A stretch of 50,346 bases of DNA from an uncultured Pelagibacteraceae bacterium. Lineage in GTDB: Bacteria > Pseudomonadota > Alphaproteobacteria > Pelagibacterales > Pelagibacteraceae. The stretch spans positions 1 to 50,346 of the forward strand of contig CACAIN010000003.1 of NCBI GenBank assembly GCA_902532595.1, written 5' to 3'. Shown one piece after another: positions 29,163-48,049 of the stretch. A model generated the notes under the pieces. It did not search any database. It saw only the letters and a program-made list of their open reading frames with translations, and had not been told where the DNA came from. The translations under genes and the position numbers were made by a program. Position 1 is the first letter of the stretch. Each line of letters opens with the position of its first letter.

Positions 29163-30344
29163 ATGAAAAAAGTATTTATTGCTGCAATCATGTCTTTGTC
29201 TATCCTGACAACAAATGTATTTGCAGAAATTAAAATGGGTATAATCTTAGGATTTACTGGTCCTATTGAATCTCTAACTCCAGCTATGGCAGCTTCTGCA
29301 GAATTAGCTTTTAAAGAAGCTTCTGACTCAGGTTCATTGCTAGGTGGAGAAAAAATTAAAGCCCTAAGAGCAGACTCAACTTGCGTAGACTCTGCTGCAG
29401 CAACAACTGCCGCAGAAGGTTTAGTTAGCCAAGGTATAGTTGCAATTATGGGAGCAGATTGTTCTGGTGTTACTGGAGCAGTTGCATCTAACGTAGCAGT
29501 TCCTAATGGAATTACTATAATATCACCTTCAGCAACATCTCCTGGTCTAACAACTTTGAAAGACAAAGGTTTGTTTTTCCGTACAGCTCCGTCGGATGCT
29601 CGAGGTGGACAAATTCTTGCTGACATTACAAAAGATAGAGGAGTTAAGAGTGTTGCTGTTACGTACACTAATAACGACTATGGTAAAGGTTTAGCTGATG
29701 TATATTCAGCAGCGGTTAAAGCTCATGGTATAAAAGTTACAACTGTAACTGCACACGAAGATGGTAAAGCCGACTACAGTGCAGAAGTTTCTACGCTAGC
29801 GTCAGCTGGTGGAGATGCAGTTGCTGTAATTGGATATCTTGACCAAGGTGGTAAAGGAATTATTCAAGGATCTTTAGATTCTGGTGCCTTTGATAAATTT
29901 ATATTATCAGATGGTATGATTGGTGATTCACTTACTGATACTTTTGGTAAAAGCTTAAACAAATCTTTTGGTTCTTTACCAGGTTCTTTAGGTAAAGGAG
30001 CAGGAGTATTCGGAAAAGTTGCTAAAGCAGCTGGAATTGATCCATCTGGTCCATATACTGGAGAATCTTACGATGCAGCAGCTTTAATCGTTCTTGCAAT
30101 GCAAGCTAGTGGTTCTGCTGATCGTGGTTCAATTGCAAAAAATGTTATGTCTGTAGCTAATGCACCTGGAACAAAAATCTATCCGGGTCAGCTTAAAAAA
30201 GGCTTAGATCTTTTAGCTAAAGGAAAAGCAATTGATTACGAAGGTGCTACTGCAGTTAAATTTACAGATGTTGGAGAACACGTTGGTAATTTCATAGAAA
30301 AAGAAATTAAGGGCGGTAAATTTAAAAACAAAAAACAAAGATAA
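29163..30344 (+). CDS. Branched-chain-amino-acid-type ABC transporter substrate-binding protein
   Basis: Signal peptide; 'KMGIILGFTGPIESLTPAMAASAELAFKEA', 'GIVAIMGADCSGVTGAVA'; SD-like 'aagaggagtaat' before the ATG. Confidence 0.92.
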   Translation: MKKVFIAAIMSLSILTTNVFAEIKMGIILGFTGPIESLTPAMAASAELAFKEASDSGSLLGGEKIKALRADSTCVDSAAATTAAEGLVSQGIVAIMGADCSGVTGAVASNVAVPNGITIISPSATSPGLTTLKDKGLFFRTAPSDARGGQILADITKDRGVKSVAVTYTNNDYGKGLADVYSAAVKAHGIKVTTVTAHEDGKADYSAEVSTLASAGGDAVAVIGYLDQGGKGIIQGSLDSGAFDKFILSDGMIGDSLTDTFGKSLNKSFGSLPGSLGKGAGVFGKVAKAAGIDPSGPYTGESYDAAALIVLAMQASGSADRGSIAKNVMSVANAPGTKIYPGQLKKGLDLLAKGKAIDYEGATAVKFTDVGEHVGNFIEKEIKGGKFKNKKQR

Positions 30345-30360
30345 AATTTAATCTTACAAA

Positions 30361-30392
30361 CCTCAGCGGTGAAAACTGCTGAGGTTTTTTTA
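30361..30392 (+). terminator. Rho-independent terminator of the SBP gene
   Basis: Hairpin cctcagcggt-gaaa-actgctgagg followed by tttttt. Confidence 0.9.
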
Positions 30393-31760
30393 TATGTGTT
30401 TTATTTTCTCAGGTAAAATTCCTTTTGGTCTATAACGCATAATTAACAGTAAACCAATTCCCATCATTAAAAATCTAAAATATGGAATGCTATCAACTAA
30501 ATGAACTCTAAAAGCATTAGTTTCTTCTAAACCGCTAGTAAAAAAATTAATCAAGAATAATGCGATAGGAGCAGCTTCTACCCATAAAAACCAAACTGCA
30601 AAACCTCCTAAAATTGCACCAAAATTATTTCCACTTCCACCGACAATAACCATTACCCAAATTAAAAATGTATACCTCATTGGTCTATAACTTCCCGGTG
30701 TAAATAATCCATCATAAGTGACCATCATAGCTCCGGCTATACCAACTATTGCTGAACCAAGAACAAAAATTAAAAGATGTTGCTTAACAACATTCTTTCC
30801 CATGGCATTAGCCGCTTCTTCATTGTCTCTGATGGCTCTCATCATTCTTCCCCAAGGAGAATAAAGTGCTTTTTGAGTTATGATTAAAAGAATTATTACC
30901 ACAACGGTAAAAAGTCCGGCAAAACATAATTTTACAAATACTGTTGAGGATTCGATGATTAGCTGTTTTAATAACTCTTGTTTTTCTGAAGCATCAGTAA
31001 TCAAATTCAAAGTGCCTTGGTTAAATTTCTCAACTAAATTGATAAACCATTCTTTGGTTTGTAGATCAACTTCATATGGAACTGGTCTTTTTAAACCAAT
31101 CACATTTTTAACACCACGAGCTAACCAATCCTCGTGCTTTATTACAGCAATAACAATTTCTGATATTAATAGTGTTGCTATCGCCAAATAGTCTGCTCTA
31201 AGCCCTAAAGCAATTTTTCCTATAATGTATGCCAAGGCGCCAGCAAAAAAAGCTCCTACTATCCAAGAAAATAATATTGGAAGACCCATTCCTCCTAGAA
31301 AGCCAGTAGTTGCTGGACTAACGGATTCGATTGACTCTATAGCTGGTGCAGATATTAATCTTAAAAGAATTAGCCCAACTATTATTATAGCCGCAATTCC
31401 ATAGCTTCTTTTTTTTGATTGATTATATTTTTTGATAATAAAACGAATGCTAAAAACCATGAAAACAATCAAAAAGGCACATAATATCATATTAAAACCT
31501 CCTACCTGCCATGCCTCTCGAACAGGAGGAACTGAAACCAAAACAGCTGCTAAACCACCAAGAGCTGTGTAACCCATTATTCCAAAATTTATCAACCCTG
31601 CATATCCCCATTGGATATTAGCTCCTATTGTCATTACCGCCGAGATCAAACAAAGACACAAAATTGATAACGCCATGCTCCAAGATTGTAAAAATCCTAC
31701 CAAAATTATGAGTCCTAACATTATTGAATATGCGCTTATTATGTCTAGATTTTTTCTCAT
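30390..31760 (-). CDS. livM: Branched-chain amino acid ABC transporter permease (LivM-type)
   Basis: 'GYAGLINFGIMGYTALGGLAAVL', 'LRADYLAIATLLISEIV', 'WGRMMRAIRDNEEAANAMGKNVVKQHLLIFVLGSAIVGIAGAM'. Confidence 0.92.
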   Translation of the reverse strand: MRKNLDIISAYSIMLGLIILVGFLQSWSMALSILCLCLISAVMTIGANIQWGYAGLINFGIMGYTALGGLAAVLVSVPPVREAWQVGGFNMILCAFLIVFMVFSIRFIIKKYNQSKKRSYGIAAIIIVGLILLRLISAPAIESIESVSPATTGFLGGMGLPILFSWIVGAFFAGALAYIIGKIALGLRADYLAIATLLISEIVIAVIKHEDWLARGVKNVIGLKRPVPYEVDLQTKEWFINLVEKFNQGTLNLITDASEKQELLKQLIIESSTVFVKLCFAGLFTVVVIILLIITQKALYSPWGRMMRAIRDNEEAANAMGKNVVKQHLLIFVLGSAIVGIAGAMMVTYDGLFTPGSYRPMRYTFLIWVMVIVGGSGNNFGAILGGFAVWFLWVEAAPIALFLINFFTSGLEETNAFRVHLVDSIPYFRFLMMGIGLLLIMRYRPKGILPEKIKHI

Positions 31761-32767
31761 AAAACTTTTCCTTTAAATATTCCTGAAGGTCTAAATAATA
31801 AAACTATTACTAGAATTGAGAAAGAAACTGCAAATTTATAATCGGTCGATAGCAATTGTAATAAGCCATCGGGCTCTAGACTTTCCGGAAGTAAATAAAC
31901 AAAGAATTTTTTGTAAGCATAAGTTAAAAGTATTTCTGAAAATGCAATAACATATCCTCCCAAAAAAGCTCCAAAAGGATTTCCAATACCTCCTACGATA
32001 GCTGCAGCAAATATTGGAAGCATATTGTTAAAGTAGGTAAATGGTTTAAAGCTTTTATCTAGACCATAAAGAGCTCCACCAATAGTAGCCAAAATTGCAG
32101 CTATTACCCAAGTAATCATAACCACTTTTTTAGGATCTATTCCAGACAAAAGTGCTAGATCTTCATTATCCGAATAAGCTCGCATGCTCTTTCCAGTTTT
32201 TGTTTTGTTTAAAAACCAAAATAAAATAGAAACAACAATAATTGTAACTAGCAAAGTAATAACTTGGGTCGATTTGATTGTTAATCCTTCATTCAAACCT
32301 GTCATTTCTTTAAATTCATTTGCCTTTAGAATAAACTTTTCTCCATCAAAAAATCTTCTATCAAATGGTCCAATAATTATTCTTACAATTGCTTGGGTAA
32401 CAAACATTGTGCCTATGCTAACCATCGCCAACATAACGGGAGGGCTTTTTTGTGTACGATAATAACTAAAAACTAATTTATCCTTAACAAGAACATATAG
32501 TATTGTAACAATTATCCCAAAAGGCATAGCAAGTAATGCTGTGGGAAGAAAACCTAAATTAATTCCAAGAGATTGAAAGTACCATGTAAATAAAATTGTA
32601 AACATAGTACCAAACGACATAAGATCACCAGCAGTAAAATATGCAAATCGCAAGATTCCATAAATTAAAGAAACAAAAATAGCTCCTAATGCTAATTGAG
32701 ATCCATAAGACAAAGCAGGTACAAATAAATAATTTAAGAGTAAAACTATTGCGTTTAAAAAATCCAT
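31757..32767 (-). CDS. livH: Branched-chain amino acid ABC transporter permease (LivH-type)
   Basis: 'GAIFVSLIYGILRFAYFTAGDLMSFG', 'TGKSMRAYSDNEDLALLSGIDPKKVV'; 4-bp overlap with livM. Confidence 0.92.
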   Translation of the reverse strand: MDFLNAIVLLLNYLFVPALSYGSQLALGAIFVSLIYGILRFAYFTAGDLMSFGTMFTILFTWYFQSLGINLGFLPTALLAMPFGIIVTILYVLVKDKLVFSYYRTQKSPPVMLAMVSIGTMFVTQAIVRIIIGPFDRRFFDGEKFILKANEFKEMTGLNEGLTIKSTQVITLLVTIIVVSILFWFLNKTKTGKSMRAYSDNEDLALLSGIDPKKVVMITWVIAAILATIGGALYGLDKSFKPFTYFNNMLPIFAAAIVGGIGNPFGAFLGGYVIAFSEILLTYAYKKFFVYLLPESLEPDGLLQLLSTDYKFAVSFSILVIVLLFRPSGIFKGKVL

Positions 32768-32768
32768 A

Positions 32769-33476
32769 TCAACCTCCTAAAAAAGAACTTCTTACTCTTG
32801 GATCGTTTAGAAGTTCCTTTCCTGTTCCGGAGTATCTATTTTCTCCAGTGACTAAGACATATCCTCTATCTGATATGCTTAGTGCTTGTTTTGCATTTTG
32901 TTCAACCATCAAAATAGCTACGTTTGTTTTTTTTACTTTAATAATATGATCAAACAACTCATCCATAACGATTGGCGAAACTCCCGCTGTAGGTTCATCA
33001 AGCATTAAGACTGATGGTTTGATCATTAATGCTCTTCCTAATGCTACTTGCTGTCTTTGCCCTCCAGATAATTCACCAACTAGCTGAGATTTTTTTTCTT
33101 TTAAAATAGGAAACAACTCATAAATTTCATCAATAATCTTTTGAAGACTTTCATCTCTTAAAAAAGCACCCATCTCTAAATTTTCTTCAACGCTTAGTCC
33201 AGCGAATACGTTTCTAGTTTGCGGAACAAATGCTATCCCTTGTTTAACTCTATCTTGCGGATTTAAATGGGAAATATCTTTACCATTTATAATAACTTTA
33301 CCTGATTTAAGATTTAATAATCCCAGCATGGCCTTCATGGCTGTAGATTTTCCCGCTCCATTTGGACCAAGTATTGAAACTATTTCACCTTGATTAACGT
33401 TTACTGAACAGGAAGAAATGATATCAGGACCATTGCCATAACCTCCTGTCATTTTTATACCTTCAAAAAAAGCCAT
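32769..33476 (-). CDS. livF: Branched-chain amino acid ABC transporter ATP-binding protein (LivF-type)
   Basis: Walker A 'GPNGAGKST', signature 'LSGGQRQQ', Walker B 'VLMLDEPTAG'. Confidence 0.94.
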   Translation of the reverse strand: MAFFEGIKMTGGYGNGPDIISSCSVNVNQGEIVSILGPNGAGKSTAMKAMLGLLNLKSGKVIINGKDISHLNPQDRVKQGIAFVPQTRNVFAGLSVEENLEMGAFLRDESLQKIIDEIYELFPILKEKKSQLVGELSGGQRQQVALGRALMIKPSVLMLDEPTAGVSPIVMDELFDHIIKVKKTNVAILMVEQNAKQALSISDRGYVLVTGENRYSGTGKELLNDPRVRSSFLGG

Positions 33477-34270
33477 TAACTTTTATCCTTTAATTTTGAT
33501 CCTCTTCCTAAATAACTTTCAATAACTTTTTCACTCTTTTTAACTTCATCAGAAGTTCCTTCAAATAAAACTGAGCCTTCAGCCATCACAATCACTGGAT
33601 TGCACAATCGACTAATAAACTCCATATCGTGCTCTATCATGCAAAATGTATATCCTTGTTCTTTATTTAACCTCAATATTGCACTTCCTATATCTTTTAA
33701 AAGTGTTCGATTAACTCCAGCACCAACCTCATCTAACAAAACCAACTTAGCATCAACCATCATAGTTCTACCAAGTTCTAATAGTTTTTTTTGACCACCA
33801 GATAAATTTCCCGCAAGTTCATTTGAAAGATGTTTAAGGTTAAGAAAATCAATTACCTCCAAAGCTTTTTCTTTAACTTTTACTTCCTCTTTTTTAACAA
33901 TACTTGAGTTAAATAAGGCGTTAACTAAATTTTCACCAGACTGATTTCCTGGAACCATCATTAAATTTTCTAGCACTGTGAGATTTGTAAATTCATGTGC
34001 AATTTGAAAAGTTCTCAAAACACCTTTTGAAAATAATTCGTAAGAAGGAATATTGGTAATATCTTCATCATTGAACAAAACTGTACCTTGGGAGGATTCT
34101 AAATTGCCAGAAATCAAATTAAATAGTGTTGTCTTGCCTGATCCATTAGGTCCAATAATGCCTGTTATGGAGCCTTTTTTAATTTTTAAAGAGCAATTGG
34201 AAACTGCTGCTAATCCTCCAAAAAATTTAGAAAGATTGTTAATCTGCAGAATATTTGAGTCTGACTGCAT
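33476..34270 (-). CDS. livG: Branched-chain amino acid ABC transporter ATP-binding protein (LivG-type)
   Basis: Walker A 'GPNGSGKTT', signature 'LSGGQKKLLELGRTMM', 'VLLDEVGAGVN'. Confidence 0.94.
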   Translation of the reverse strand: MQSDSNILQINNLSKFFGGLAAVSNCSLKIKKGSITGIIGPNGSGKTTLFNLISGNLESSQGTVLFNDEDITNIPSYELFSKGVLRTFQIAHEFTNLTVLENLMMVPGNQSGENLVNALFNSSIVKKEEVKVKEKALEVIDFLNLKHLSNELAGNLSGGQKKLLELGRTMMVDAKLVLLDEVGAGVNRTLLKDIGSAILRLNKEQGYTFCMIEHDMEFISRLCNPVIVMAEGSVLFEGTSDEVKKSEKVIESYLGRGSKLKDKS

Positions 34271-41360: not shown

Positions 41361-41392
41361 ACATTAAGTTTACCTGATATTAAGCTTTCTGC

Positions 41393-41731
41393 CTAAATAT
41401 TATTTAATAAAGCTAAAAAAAATGCTGATATAATTGTTGGTATTACAAGATTTTTTTTTGATTTTATAAATATAAAGATGCAACACACCAACACTACTAA
41501 ACGATATATAAGATCTGAATCAGATAATACTCCTGCAGGAAATATTATCATTCTACCTAAAAGAGCAGCCAAAGTGGAATAAGCTACACAGTTAAACCAC
41601 TGAAATATTTTAGATTTAACACTTACTTTTTCTGATGTTAGAGCTCCCATAAAACGAGAAATAAATGTTGCTAATGAAGTTGCGATAATTGCTAAAATTA
41701 TTATTTGACTACTTTCCATTTTTTTCTCCAA
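41393..41731 (-). CDS. azlD: AzlD family branched-chain amino acid transport protein
   Basis: Small hydrophobic protein overlapping azlC; 'TSLATFISRFMGAL', 'FQWFNCVAYSTLAALLGRMI'. Confidence 0.85.
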   Translation of the reverse strand: MEKKMESSQIIILAIIATSLATFISRFMGALTSEKVSVKSKIFQWFNCVAYSTLAALLGRMIIFPAGVLSDSDLIYRLVVLVCCIFIFIKSKKNLVIPTIISAFFLALLNNI

Positions 41732-42413
41732 ATAAAAATGCTACAGTTCCTGCAATAAGACCTGCAAACAATAAAGCCCACTCACTTGAAACCGTATAAA
41801 TTACAGGGCCTAATATTGTTCCCACAACAACTGCAATAGAAATACTTAAATTTTTCATGGCGCCTATCATCATACAAAAGAAATAAACTGGATTAACAAT
41901 TGCTAATCCAATTAGCATATCTTTGTTTAAATAATCAGCTGAAAGATAGCCAGCCATTGTCATTAATATTGCAGTAGTCCAGGTTCCTATACCTATGCCT
42001 ATCCAAAAATCTATTCTATGTTTTTTATCTATTTTTTTATAACCATCTTTTGCAATCAACCATGACGTAACAGCCAAAAAATGACACGATAAATAATATT
42101 TCCATTTTGGTTGTTTATTATGCTCAAGCAATGGAAATAAAGAAACTGTCATAGGATAAAGCCGAAAATTAACTAACCAAACTGCGATAAATATATTTAC
42201 TAATGAGGCTCCTACTAGCAATGACTCTGCCATAACTAACTGCCCTGGAAGTGCGTAAGTAAAAAAACTTGATGCAGCACTTTGTTGTAAATTAAAACCA
42301 GCATCTTTTAATAATGCGCCTAACGCAATAAAACATGCTGCTAATGGGATAGCGGGACTTTTAGAGCCTTTAAGAGATTTTAAACCTTGAAAAAAGACTT
42401 TAGAGTTTATCAT
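41709..42413 (-). CDS. azlC: AzlC family ABC-independent permease/exporter subunit
   Basis: 'IPLAACFIALGALLKDAGFNLQQSAASSFFTYALPGQLVMAESLL', 'NFRLYPMTVSLFPLL'. Confidence 0.88.
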   Translation of the reverse strand: MINSKVFFQGLKSLKGSKSPAIPLAACFIALGALLKDAGFNLQQSAASSFFTYALPGQLVMAESLLVGASLVNIFIAVWLVNFRLYPMTVSLFPLLEHNKQPKWKYYLSCHFLAVTSWLIAKDGYKKIDKKHRIDFWIGIGIGTWTTAILMTMAGYLSADYLNKDMLIGLAIVNPVYFFCMMIGAMKNLSISIAVVVGTILGPVIYTVSSEWALLFAGLIAGTVAFLFGEKNGK

Positions 42414-43195
42414 CCACCGAGGAATAGTCTTCCTACATCTGGATTTTTTAATAGATCATCACCTTTGCCAGCGATTGCAGTTTGTCCTGAAACTAAAACA
42501 TACCCAATATCAGCAAACTCTAAACCTTTTTTTGCATTTTGCTCTACAAGTATAATTGTCTTTTTCTCAGCTTTTTGAAGATCATCTAAAATTTCGAAAA
42601 CCATGCTTATATATTTAGGTTCTAAACCAATAGAAGGTTCATCCACTAATAAAACTGAAGGTTTCATAACTAAAGCTCTAGAGATTTCTAATAATCTTCT
42701 TTCTCCACCAGATAAAACTTTAGCAGGCTGATTTCTTCTATTTCTTAATCTTTCATATTTTTGAAAAATTCTCTCCGCTTCTTCATAGGCTTCATCCTGT
42801 TTATCTTTAATGTACCCGCCCATTAAAAGATTTTCCTCTACTGTCATATCTGGAAACACTGAATTATCTTGTAAGATATAAGCAATACCTACTTTGCTTA
42901 ATTTTTGTGCTGGAGTTAATTTTGTAATTTCATTCCCTTCTAATTCAATTTTTCCATCAAAAATATTTGTGAAACCGTAAATAGAATGAAGTATTGTAGA
43001 TTTTCCTGCACCGTTAGGTCCTATTAAACACAACGACTGTGCCTTACTAACTGTTAAATCAAAATTGTGAAGTATCTCCATTTTTCCATAACCAGCGTTT
43101 AAACCTCTAATAGTTAGGTGAACATCGTTTGGAGATAATTTATTAATCTCCTCTAAACCGGGCGCTTTACCCAAAACATCATATTGATTTGCCAT
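42410..43195 (-). CDS. livF: Branched-chain amino acid ABC transporter ATP-binding protein (LivF-type), second system
   Basis: Walker A 'GPNGAGKST', 'LSGGERRLLEISRALVMKPSVLLVDEPSIGL'. Confidence 0.93.
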   Translation of the reverse strand: MANQYDVLGKAPGLEEINKLSPNDVHLTIRGLNAGYGKMEILHNFDLTVSKAQSLCLIGPNGAGKSTILHSIYGFTNIFDGKIELEGNEITKLTPAQKLSKVGIAYILQDNSVFPDMTVEENLLMGGYIKDKQDEAYEEAERIFQKYERLRNRRNQPAKVLSGGERRLLEISRALVMKPSVLLVDEPSIGLEPKYISMVFEILDDLQKAEKKTIILVEQNAKKGLEFADIGYVLVSGQTAIAGKGDDLLKNPDVGRLFLGG

Positions 43196-43929
43196 TACTG
43201 CGCTCCTAAATAAGCATCAACTACTCGCTTATCATTTTTAATTTGATCAGGTGAACCTTCAGCTAACATTTTTCCGTGTGCTAGACAGAAAATTTTTTGA
43301 GCTAAACTCATAATCACTCTCATATTATGTTCTATAACTAATAAAGTTATCCCGTAATCTTTATTAACTTTAATTAATCTATCAATAATTCCATTTATTA
43401 AAGTTGGATTAATTCCAGCTGTTGGTTCATCTAATAAAAGCATTTTCGGTTCGTTCATTAGAGCCATTGCTAGTTCTAATAATTTTTGTTGTCCAAATGA
43501 TAGGTCTCCTGCTCTCAAATTTCTCTTTTGATAAAGTCCTACAAAGTTTAAAATATTTTCTGCTTTCTCAGTAAGTTCAATAGGGATCTTTGCAAATATA
43601 AATCCAGAATCACTAGCCTTGTGGCTAATTAACATATTTTCAATACAATTAAGTTTTGAATAAATTCTTGTTTGTTGGAATGTTCTTAGTAAACCAAGTT
43701 TAGCTACAGCTGGAACAGGCATTTCTGAAACCTCTGTATTATCAAAAATTATTGAACCTTGATCAATTGGATGGGTCCCAACTATTGAATTAAATAAAGT
43801 TGTCTTACCAGAGCCATTGGGCCCTATTAAACCGACTATTGATCCTTGCTCTACAGAAACAGAAATGTCTACATTAGCTTGCACTCCACCAAAAGATTTA
43901 CTTACATTTTTAACTTCTAAAATACTCAT
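43195..43929 (-). CDS. livG: Branched-chain amino acid ABC transporter ATP-binding protein (LivG-type), second system
   Basis: Walker A 'GPNGSGKTT', 'LSFGQQKLLELAMALMNEPKMLLLDEPTAGINP'. Confidence 0.93.
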   Translation of the reverse strand: MSILEVKNVSKSFGGVQANVDISVSVEQGSIVGLIGPNGSGKTTLFNSIVGTHPIDQGSIIFDNTEVSEMPVPAVAKLGLLRTFQQTRIYSKLNCIENMLISHKASDSGFIFAKIPIELTEKAENILNFVGLYQKRNLRAGDLSFGQQKLLELAMALMNEPKMLLLDEPTAGINPTLINGIIDRLIKVNKDYGITLLVIEHNMRVIMSLAQKIFCLAHGKMLAEGSPDQIKNDKRVVDAYLGAQ

Positions 43930-44981
43930 TTTAATTCCACCTGTGCTTTACGATCTTTTTCATCAATTACTTCACCAAATCTTTCAGGATATTTTTCTCT
44001 TAACCAACCCATTAAACCTTCTGGAAAATAAACTACGATCACAACAATTAAAACTCCTAGCGCAACATATTGCCAGCCCAATATTAATGTCCAAAGACCT
44101 TCTTTTAAAACATGAAATAAAGATGCTCCAATTATAGGTCCCCATAAAGTTCCTTTACCACCGAGTATTGCCATAAGAACCATGAATACTCCCATCTCTC
44201 TTCCATCAAATGCAACATCAGTTGAGTCTATATATCCAATTAGTCCTCCCATAATTCCCCCAGCAAGACCACAGAAAAATGCAGAAACCATCCAGCCAAC
44301 AATTTTATATTTCATTGTTTGAATGCCCATGGCCTCTGCTTTATCCTCATTATCTCTTATCGCATTTAAAATTAATCTAAATCTAGAACCGTAAATAAAT
44401 TTAACAAAAACAAAAGTTGCAATTAACATAATGAAACTTAGAAAATAAAAAAACTTTCCTCTAGCTTCAGGATCAACAATATCTTTTGGGAAAGGCGGAG
44501 TAGTAAAGCCTTGACCTGCTCCGATAATTTCTATTCCTCCAGCAATTTCACCTGCTGCAATTCCTAAACCCAAAGTACAAATTGCAAAATAATGACCTCT
44601 TAATCCTAATATGGCGTAACCTATAAGACCTGCAACAATTGTTGGTATAATAGCAGCAACTAATAAACCAACACCTATTCCTTGAAAATATTGTGCTGTT
44701 GTGTGCACAAATGTTTTTTCACCACCACTTTCTGTCCATTCTGCTAATGGAAAGAACATACCAACTTGAACTGAGGCAGTTAGATACATTCCAAGACCAT
44801 AGAAAAGAATATTTCCAAAAGAATTATAGCCCATTTCTCCCCCTTGTAGGTTCCAAGTCATTGCCAATACTATCAAAACACAGAGAATTGTTAGCTGAAC
44901 TTTAAAAGCAGAAAATAAATAAGGTGCTGCTAAACCTAAGATAATTAAACCAGAGTATAAAATTAAATCTTTTTGTTTCAT
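43926..44981 (-). CDS. livM: Branched-chain amino acid ABC transporter permease (LivM-type), second system
   Basis: 'GEMGYNSFGNILFYGLGMYLTASVQVG', 'LRGHYFAICTLGLGIAAGE', 'RFRLILNAIRDNEDKAEAMGI'. Confidence 0.93.
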   Translation of the reverse strand: MKQKDLILYSGLIILGLAAPYLFSAFKVQLTILCVLIVLAMTWNLQGGEMGYNSFGNILFYGLGMYLTASVQVGMFFPLAEWTESGGEKTFVHTTAQYFQGIGVGLLVAAIIPTIVAGLIGYAILGLRGHYFAICTLGLGIAAGEIAGGIEIIGAGQGFTTPPFPKDIVDPEARGKFFYFLSFIMLIATFVFVKFIYGSRFRLILNAIRDNEDKAEAMGIQTMKYKIVGWMVSAFFCGLAGGIMGGLIGYIDSTDVAFDGREMGVFMVLMAILGGKGTLWGPIIGASLFHVLKEGLWTLILGWQYVALGVLIVVIVVYFPEGLMGWLREKYPERFGEVIDEKDRKAQVELK

Positions 44982-44983
44982 TT

Positions 44984-45853
44984 TTAATGTTGACCCTCTT
45001 TAAAGTTTTTATAACGGTTATAAGTGCACCAAGTTCTTTTCTTAGATACTTTTTGTAATTTTTTATGAGAATATCTATCTCTCCATTTATAATCAGGGTT
45101 AGGCGCGATACCTCTTCCAACTTCTGCGGCCATAGCACATTTTAATTCGACCGGATTAAAAGGTGTATCTGAAGCTGGTGTTAAAAAAACCAAGTCTTTC
45201 ATATCTGGGCAGGCAGGATCTCCGTGATCATATATACTACCCAATTTGTATTTATCACCACCCTCGGGTCCTCCAACGATTGTATTTCTAATATGACTAC
45301 CTCCGTAATTTCCTTTATTACACGTCCAAGCAAAACCAGCCACGTGAGCTAATTCATGCAGTGTCATAATACTTCTTTTTGCTTTATTACCAATGTATTT
45401 ACTTTTTAAAAATATGTATCCATGATGAACGGATCCTTGACCACCATCTCGATGACCAACATCAACCCATGAAAAATAAAGTTTATTTGGATCATTAAAT
45501 CCATTTTTTGTAAGAAAAGCATCTGGATAGTTCATTCCATAATTTCCTTTGTATTTTTTATCAAAACGAACAAACGAGATATCTAGTTTTCCATCTTTTC
45601 TCATATCATATCTAAATTTTTGTTTTCCCTTTGTCATTTCAAAAAATTTTTCATTAATTTCCATGAGTTCAGCTTCCATTTTTCCATTAATATCCCACTC
45701 CCTGTCTTTGCTATCTTTATTTAACAAGTATATGAAATGAACTTGTGGATCATTTGTTACATCTGGCTGATCTTTAAAAAATCTACCTGGTTTTTCATCA
45801 GCAAATGCAGATGAAACCATTAACAAAGTTAAAAATAAAATAATTTTTCTCAT
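44984..45853 (-). CDS. Secreted zincin-like protein with HExxH motif, function unknown
   Basis: Signal peptide 'MRKIILFLTLLMVSSAFADE'; 'SIMTLHELAHVAGFAWTCNKG' (HExxH at 45326-45358); four downstream Cys (WTC, PAC, LKC, TWC). Confidence 0.75.
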   Translation of the reverse strand: MRKIILFLTLLMVSSAFADEKPGRFFKDQPDVTNDPQVHFIYLLNKDSKDREWDINGKMEAELMEINEKFFEMTKGKQKFRYDMRKDGKLDISFVRFDKKYKGNYGMNYPDAFLTKNGFNDPNKLYFSWVDVGHRDGGQGSVHHGYIFLKSKYIGNKAKRSIMTLHELAHVAGFAWTCNKGNYGGSHIRNTIVGGPEGGDKYKLGSIYDHGDPACPDMKDLVFLTPASDTPFNPVELKCAMAAEVGRGIAPNPDYKWRDRYSHKKLQKVSKKRTWCTYNRYKNFKEGQH

Positions 45854-46743
45854 TTTAAATATTCTCTTTTTTTTGAAAGCTTAAATCTTCTGTAAACTAA
45901 GATAAGAACTAACAGCATAAATACTGCTCCAATTCTAAATTCTGTTCCTAAAATATAATCTGCAAATTCTTCAAATAGTCCTAATCCCATTCCTGAAATT
46001 GCTACCGCTGGTAAATTACCAAGGCCTGCTACGATTACTATCATGAAAGATCTAACTGTATAAGGAAGTCCTACATAAGGGTGAAGAGTAAGAGTGATTG
46101 AGATTAGAGCTCCAGCAATTCCACATAACGCAGCGTTTATACCAAATGTTGCGGCATAAACTTTTTCTGTATCTACACCAAGAATTTTTGCAGCTCTAGC
46201 ATTTTGCGCTGTAGCTCTTATAGCTCGTCCAAGTTTAGATTTTTTCATATAAACAACCAAAGCTATTGCGTATAAAACACTTATAAAAGCTGAGAATATT
46301 TTTGAATTTGGTAGGGTAACTGAATTATCAAATAACATTGTTGTTCCATATTCTGATTGCGCTACTACAACATCTGCACCGAATATAAAATTCATTAATT
46401 GTTGAAATACAATGGCAATACCAAAAGTTGCTAAAATCGAAATGAAAAGATCTCTATCTACTACTTTATTAATAACAAGTTTATATAATCCCCATCCAAC
46501 AAAAAACATTATAATTGGAGATACGATTACTCCCCAGGCTGGATGTATCCCTGCAAGGTACATGCTATAAGCTATGTACCCTCCCAAAATTACTAAATCT
46601 CCTTGAGCAATATTAATTATATTCATTACTCCCCACTGAAGAGCCATACCATATGCTATTAAAGCAAATAAAATTCCAAGAAGAATTCCGTCCAAAGATG
46701 CTTGAACCATTAAAATCGGTGCTTTAAAAATTAAAAAATCCAT
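45850..46743 (-). CDS. livH: Branched-chain amino acid ABC transporter permease (LivH-type), second system
   Basis: 'DGILLGILFALIAYGMALQWGVMNIINIAQGDLVILGGYIAY', 'GRAIRATAQNARAAKILGVDTEKVYAATFG'; overlaps the HExxH gene by 4 bp. Confidence 0.94.
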   Translation of the reverse strand: MDFLIFKAPILMVQASLDGILLGILFALIAYGMALQWGVMNIINIAQGDLVILGGYIAYSMYLAGIHPAWGVIVSPIIMFFVGWGLYKLVINKVVDRDLFISILATFGIAIVFQQLMNFIFGADVVVAQSEYGTTMLFDNSVTLPNSKIFSAFISVLYAIALVVYMKKSKLGRAIRATAQNARAAKILGVDTEKVYAATFGINAALCGIAGALISITLTLHPYVGLPYTVRSFMIVIVAGLGNLPAVAISGMGLGLFEEFADYILGTEFRIGAVFMLLVLILVYRRFKLSKKREYLK

Positions 46744-46807: not shown

Positions 46808-48049
46808 TTAGCTTCTTTCAGACCACTTAGGTATTGGGTGGTAGAACTTGTCAGAAGCCCATTTAGTTGGAGCAACAACTTTATTCTCACACACATCACC
46901 TTTACATCTTACTTGGAACAAGATCATTGGTTTAGCAGTGTTTTGACCACCAGGACCAAATTTAATGTTTCCATAGAAAGTTTGCATTTCAGTAGTTTTA
47001 AGAGCATCTCTTACTTTATCTCTGTCAAAAGAATTTGCTCTTTCGAACGCATCTTTAAACACTAGTAAAGCAGCAGATGATTCAGCTGATTGGTAAGGTG
47101 GAGCATAACCAAACTCTTTTTTAAAGTCTTTGTCATACTTTTTACCAGAGCCAAAAAACTTATCTTTGTAACTTAAGTTTTTATGCCATTGAGAAGCGCA
47201 CAATGCGTATTCTGATTTCTTTCCATGTTGTTTAGAAAGTTTTGCAGCATCACAGTGTGTCATCGCTAACATAGGTACATCAACTTTCATTTCAGATATT
47301 TGTCTGATTGCAGTTAATGCGCCTTTAGTGTGACCAGATACTACTAATACATCAGGCTTAGTTGCTTTAACTTTAGCTAATGTAGCAGCCATATCATTTA
47401 ACTCTTTTGGCAATTTGTCATCAATAATGATTGTAGATCCAGTTCTCTTTGCTGCATCTAAAATACCTAGTCTCACATCTTGAGAGAAGGCATCTTGTTC
47501 AAATGCTTGAGCAATTTTCACTGGCTTACCACCATTTTTTTCAACAGCAAGATCGATTGCTACTTCAAGGTATTGGTTGGCAGGTGATAACACTGCAAAC
47601 AAATATTTGTATCCTTTAGTAAATAAAGATCTAGATGCACCATTTGCTTCAACCATAGGAATTTTATATTTCTCGGTTACTGGTGCAATGGCTTTCGTTA
47701 AACCTGAACTGTATGGTCCAAGCATATAATGAACGCCATCTTGTTTAATTAATCTTTCAGCTAACTGAGCAGCTCTTTTAGGATTTGATTCATCGTCATA
47801 ATAAATGATTTCAAATTTATAAGATTTTCCTCCAACTTTTACTCCACCCATTTTATTGATTCTTTCAACGGCCATGTTGTAACCGTTTTGAGTGTGTACT
47901 CCATTAGAAGAATATTTTCCTGTAAGAGATATTGCAGAACCTAACACGATGTATTCACCTTCAACTTTTGCAAAAGAAGAAGAGATACTTGCTAGTGTTA
48001 AAGTTATAGCTGAAATAAATATAGTAAATAGTTTTACTAGTTTATTCAT
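46808..48049 (-). CDS. Branched-chain-amino-acid-type ABC transporter substrate-binding protein, second system
   Basis: Signal peptide; 'VLGSAISLTGKYSSNGVHTQNGYNMAVERINKMGGV', 'YDDESNPKRAAQLAERLI', 'MLGPYSSGLTKAIAPVTEKYKIPMVEANG'. Confidence 0.94.
   Translation of the reverse strand: MNKLVKLFTIFISAITLTLASISSSFAKVEGEYIVLGSAISLTGKYSSNGVHTQNGYNMAVERINKMGGVKVGGKSYKFEIIYYDDESNPKRAAQLAERLIKQDGVHYMLGPYSSGLTKAIAPVTEKYKIPMVEANGASRSLFTKGYKYLFAVLSPANQYLEVAIDLAVEKNGGKPVKIAQAFEQDAFSQDVRLGILDAAKRTGSTIIIDDKLPKELNDMAATLAKVKATKPDVLVVSGHTKGALTAIRQISEMKVDVPMLAMTHCDAAKLSKQHGKKSEYALCASQWHKNLSYKDKFFGSGKKYDKDFKKEFGYAPPYQSAESSAALLVFKDAFERANSFDRDKVRDALKTTEMQTFYGNIKFGPGGQNTAKPMILFQVRCKGDVCENKVVAPTKWASDKFYHPIPKWSERS

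Follow-up and report, generated by a model that had tools for sequence, protein, structure and literature searches.

Variable gene content at the livH-livM junction of SAR11 bacteria and a probable metzincin-like zinc peptidase among its occupants

SAR11 bacteria are the most abundant bacteria in the ocean; their genomes are very small and seem to contain little spare DNA. The stretch of DNA analyzed here (50,346 nucleotides, hereafter the window) comes from a SAR11 genome (Pelagibacteraceae) that is 59% complete and comprises 0.69 Mb in 45 contigs. On its minus strand it carries an operon of a Liv-type (Liv/HAAT) ABC importer for amino-acid uptake, composed of genes for a substrate-binding protein (SBP; 46808..48049, Peripla_BP_6 according to Pfam), a livH-type permease (45850..46743; Pfam BPD_transp_2, 9e-35), a livM-type permease (43926..44981; BPD_transp_2, 2e-28), and livG- and livF-type ATPases (43195..43929 and 42410..43195, respectively, both recognized by Pfam and NCBIfam). 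They are followed on the same strand by an azlC-like (41709..42413) and an azlD-like gene (41393..41731), which were named from their sequences and are placed in the same operon by their fixed junction distances. A second Liv-type transporter set is located about 8 kb away (29163-34270), with its permeases and ATPases on the minus strand and its SBP on the plus strand, convergent to its own permeases.

Between livH and livM, again on the minus strand, lies a gene for a protein of 289 amino acids (44984..45853), which we call X. Its ATG start codon shares 4 nt with the stop codon of livH (the ATGA overlap at 45850..45853, within ...AAAATGAG...), and its stop codon is separated from the start of livM by 2 nt (44982..44983); these tight contacts, already pointed out in the initial annotation of the region, are evident from the coordinates of the open reading frames (ORFs) and form the upstream and downstream edges of the slot described below. 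The N-terminus of X (MRKIILFLTLLMVSSAFA, residues 1-18, 45800..45853, followed by DE) reads by eye as a Sec signal peptide with an AxA site, as had been proposed. The protein contains the motif HELAH (residues 166-170, 45344..45358), with two putative zinc-binding His residues and a putative catalytic Glu, and only four cysteines (C178, C215, C239 and C276), all located C-terminally to HExxH, in agreement with the earlier reading.

Sequence searches of Pfam, NCBIfam and PDB returned no meaningful match to X, and the family to which it belongs is, as far as sequence comparison with these libraries goes, unnamed and undescribed. Its relatives were found at 77 loci in one genome collection and in 29 of 101 genomes of another, including 24 members from a second family of the order (f2), which exhibit 34-39% identity to X across the matched segment; the counts derive from draft and single-cell genomes, and the two collections share some assemblies. 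A class-wide search added just one more, distant relative. The HExxHxxG motif is kept in all 129 homologous ORFs, and therefore its occurrence in X is not a matter of chance. Among 41 aligned members the invariant columns include R24, F26, D28-D31, H39, Y42, H166, E167, H170, G173, C178, H187, C215, P216, C239 and C276. Copies of the subfamily represented in the window (X1) have a median dN/dS of 0.157, which indicates purifying selection. Some homologues (L059:1311-2525, L064:5587-6792 and L092:5527-6825) possess an additional N-terminal region of ~100-130 residues with cysteines of its own.

An AlphaFold2 model of X, built from the 41-row alignment (mean pLDDT 86.6, pTM 0.87), places HExxH in a helix spanning residues 157-171. 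Comparison of this model with the PDB by Foldseek gave metzincins as the top matches, with Akkermansia glycopeptidases at E 1.6e-5, and the same was found for a model (pLDDT 86.1) of another member, L100, which is ~37% identical to the X protein of the window and matched ADAM10, ADAM17 and snake venom enzymes with E-values of 5e-6 and up. The top matches of both models comprise adamalysin/ADAM enzymes, snake venom P-I enzymes, OgpA and Amuc_1438 of Akkermansia, and archaemetzincin. For both members the probability of the metzincin matches is about 1 while the TM-scores are low (0.2-0.5), and therefore the likeness, which extends to the metzincin catalytic fold, is limited to its core; the low TM-scores, together with the lack of any meaningful hit in the above sequence searches, set X apart from the metzincins proper. 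The exported HExxH metallopeptidase envisaged in the initial annotation is supported by invariant residues of the putative zinc site, with both the His and the Glu of HExxH retained in every homologue, by a model of metzincin-like type in which the motif falls in the active-site helix and not in a non-catalytic one, and by the conserved cysteines.

Metzincins (MEROPS clan MA(M)) are characterized by the zinc-binding consensus HExxHxxGxxH/D, with a Met-turn after the third ligand. The X family shares with them HExxHxxG in the active-site helix and a third His downstream, but the position of the third ligand in the consensus is occupied by other residues, by Trp in the case of X (HELAHVAGFAW), as noticed before, and the third His is found ~13-25 residues past the Gly of HExxHxxG, whereas in metzincins it has the fixed GxxH position. 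This later His (H187 in X, 45293..45295) is present in 129 of 129 homologues and is located, with two exceptions, 8, 9 or 20 residues past the invariant Cys that follows HExxHxxGxxxx (C178, 45320..45322). According to the alignment, H187 is most likely the third zinc ligand, rather than the residue at the Trp position or H210 of the YxH motif (45224..45226). The latter, as part of IYDHGD, had been put forward as a source of another ligand; we rejected it because it is absent from 11 of the 129 homologues and thus not required. A Met within the examined stretch after the later His was found in 46 of the 129 members (24/24 of the second family and 22/105 of the others) and in none from the clade of the window. 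All 24 second-family members have DIMY there, and TIVGG is found in the window's clade, where the Met of the Met-turn has given way to Ile/Val. DIMY or DMM in some members of the family would be Met-turn-like elements, which the window's clade would have lost. The distant relative from the same class (HEMIHSLGFPASCAKNNKSSHVNDNKNDIM) keeps HExxHxxGF..C......SHV.....DIM and matches Astacin (PF01400) with E 0.003 and 17.8 bits, under the Pfam gathering score of 22.5, while X itself has no match to PF01400 in the Pfam search.

The conserved residues and the AlphaFold2 and Foldseek results make it probable that X is a divergent zinc peptidase of metzincin-like type that is secreted. Zinc would be bound by H166, H170 and H187, with E167 serving as general base, and the domain that holds them is small and has four conserved cysteines. 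Compared with the metzincin site, the family thus appears to have its third zinc ligand displaced. One could argue that the displaced third-ligand position and the loss of the Met-turn Met in the window's clade make X a non-catalytic zinc-binding protein or pseudo-protease that serves as a metal trap or a binding module, yet Glu167 would be needless in a pure metal binder and is invariant, alongside the three His residues, in 129 of 129 homologues, which renders this reading improbable.

The surroundings of X were compared in 117 congeneric genomes of one collection in which a single contig contains both livH and livM. The junction is empty (at most 17 nt) in 87 of them and harbors an insert of 260-1995 bp in the remaining 30; a gene of the X family is found there in nine. 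The inserts represent at least seven unrelated types of cargo, most of which were read directly: X1 (870-871 bp), a second X subfamily, X2, ~50% identical (862-865 bp), an alpha/beta hydrolase of 376 amino acids (1129-1132 bp), the same hydrolase in tandem with X2 (1995 bp, L152), a GH10-like protein with a weak match only (1008 bp), small membrane proteins (322 and 260 bp), a SHOCT lipoprotein (457 bp), and a malate/lactate dehydrogenase accompanied by a second alpha/beta hydrolase (1940 bp). One copy of the GH10-like gene (L156:1116-2112, genome G106) is split into two overlapping frames, and hence looks broken, as would be expected in the course of gene loss. The other core junctions of the operon are near-constant over 54 loci, with distances of 67-73 for SBP|livH, -1 for livM|livG, 2 for livG|livF, -1 or 2 for livF|azlC, and -20 or -17 for azlC|azlD. 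The acnA|prpD junction was empty, according to the coordinate tables, in each of the 76 genomes of a sample in which the two genes share a contig, and the comparison of junctions with acnA|prpD gave a Fisher p of 6e-8 with genomes treated as unrelated. Among 50 rows, the content of the slot changes at least 18-22 times, depending on whether the tree of SBP, livG+livF or livH is used. An artefact of contig ends or assembly is an unlikely cause of the variable gap, since the junctions on either side stay constant and the same picture is seen in many separate genomes. In SAR11 the livH|livM junction is an intra-operon slot, which is left empty or filled with different proteins, most of them secreted to judge by eye from their signal peptides.

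The majority of X copies are located outside the liv operon. They were found between acnA and prpD (L042 and L043), between mtnA and mtnB (L044 and L045), and downstream of a gamma-carbonic-anhydrase-like gene (named from its sequence), in tandem with other secreted proteins. In L043 the insert begins exactly at the stop codon of acnA (TTAATG), where the window has prpD. In the tree of X, livH|livM is occupied by three separate subfamilies, and the acnA|prpD pair is nested (support 97 and 98) in the clade from livH|livM. Subfamilies of X have come into the slot on more than one occasion, and there is one clade that has moved between livH|livM and acnA|prpD. The region downstream of the gamma-carbonic-anhydrase-like gene (L048-L102) is a second variable site, with one to three X paralogues, and the secreted proteins in tandem with them (clusters 11, 19 and 23) are unassigned.

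In the initial annotation X was thought to release or trap substrate for the importer, and a survey of Liv operons for the same insertion was suggested. The family does recur at livH|livM, but a component of the importer would be present as a rule, and a gene of the X family occupies nine of the 117 junctions; 87 have no insert of any kind, and the 30 filled ones, these nine included, hold one or another of several unrelated proteins. Because the slot is mostly empty, its cargos are unrelated to each other, and the X family is found in unrelated operons, the functional link to the importer is unsupported. A more specific version, in which X cleaves peptides outside the inner membrane and the SBP and the permeases take up the products, would fit the close translational linkage of X to its neighbors livH and livM, and a functional link could still follow from the fact that several other cargos at this site are secreted hydrolases as well; nonetheless we find it unlikely in view of the many congeners that have the same operon without an insert, of cargos such as a cytoplasmic-type dehydrogenase and small membrane proteins, and of the copies of X at acnA-prpD, at mtnA-mtnB and beside the gamma-carbonic-anhydrase-like gene.

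The interpretation we favor, and regard as reasonably probable, is that X belongs to an undescribed, divergent metzincin-like family, acts as a zinc endopeptidase after export by Sec, and is carried as accessory cargo in an exchangeable operon slot. It would be part of a set of accessory genes, mostly with envelope-targeted products, that SAR11 cells gain, lose and exchange at livH|livM. Judging from the gene overlaps, X would be expressed through the operon, i.e. transcribed and, via the ATGA overlap, translated together with the importer genes, yet without being part of the importer. The substrates of X may be peptides or glycopeptides, which it would cleave in the periplasm or on the cell surface to serve general nutrition or surface processing. 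High rates of homologous recombination are reported for SAR11 (PMC12374537), so the cargos would most likely spread among cells by this process, across the conserved livH and livM flanks. That livH|livM instead serves as the attachment site of some specific mobile system not described so far, a dedicated SAR11 route that docks single accessory genes precisely between stop and start codons of operons with a preference for this junction, seems rather doubtful: many unrelated cargos do share one junction with start and stop codons as edges, one of them is a tandem (L152), and X shifts between operons with equally exact edges, but inspection of the cargos by eye revealed no recombinase, repeat or common edge motif beyond the livM start, neither X nor the 376-aa hydrolase has relatives among the contigs of the viral collection, which also argues against a viral origin, and the compact SAR11 genomes offer only junctions as harmless targets, so that selection can yield exact edges. 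If such a route did exist, secreted enzymes would be swappable like cassettes, without regulatory DNA.

Gene indels in the core regions of SAR11 genomes have been described in general terms by Wilhelm et al. 2007 (PMC2217521), according to whom rearrangements are commonest at operon boundaries and the indels are two-state. The slot resembles these indels in the presence or absence of single genes in otherwise syntenic SAR11 genomes and in purifying selection, but where they have two states, it is a single intra-operon junction with at least seven alternative cargos. As in the hypervariable regions or flexible genomic islands of SAR11 (PMC2217521, PMC7318151), the location is fixed and the gene content varies between close relatives; the islands, however, are large, whereas the slot accommodates one or two genes fitted into a transporter operon without spacers. 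In the accessible text of the literature on SAR11 gene indels and recombination, with partial coverage of journals, the livH|livM site and the X family are undescribed, and equally partial coverage yielded no literature that links SAR11, HExxH and an ABC transporter. For the question of how SAR11 cells with small genomes differ in the substrates they can degrade, the slot provides a concrete and countable unit of variation, and it is a caution that, in genomes of this kind, a shared operon is no safe guide to function.

Variation also occurs at the 3' end of this operon. The azlD|TauD junction (41361-41392 in the window; L175-L214 elsewhere) measures mostly -1 to ~124 bp, and 0.9-4 kb in other cases, where some of the inserts encode a secreted alpha/beta hydrolase that is also found at livH|livM in L142.
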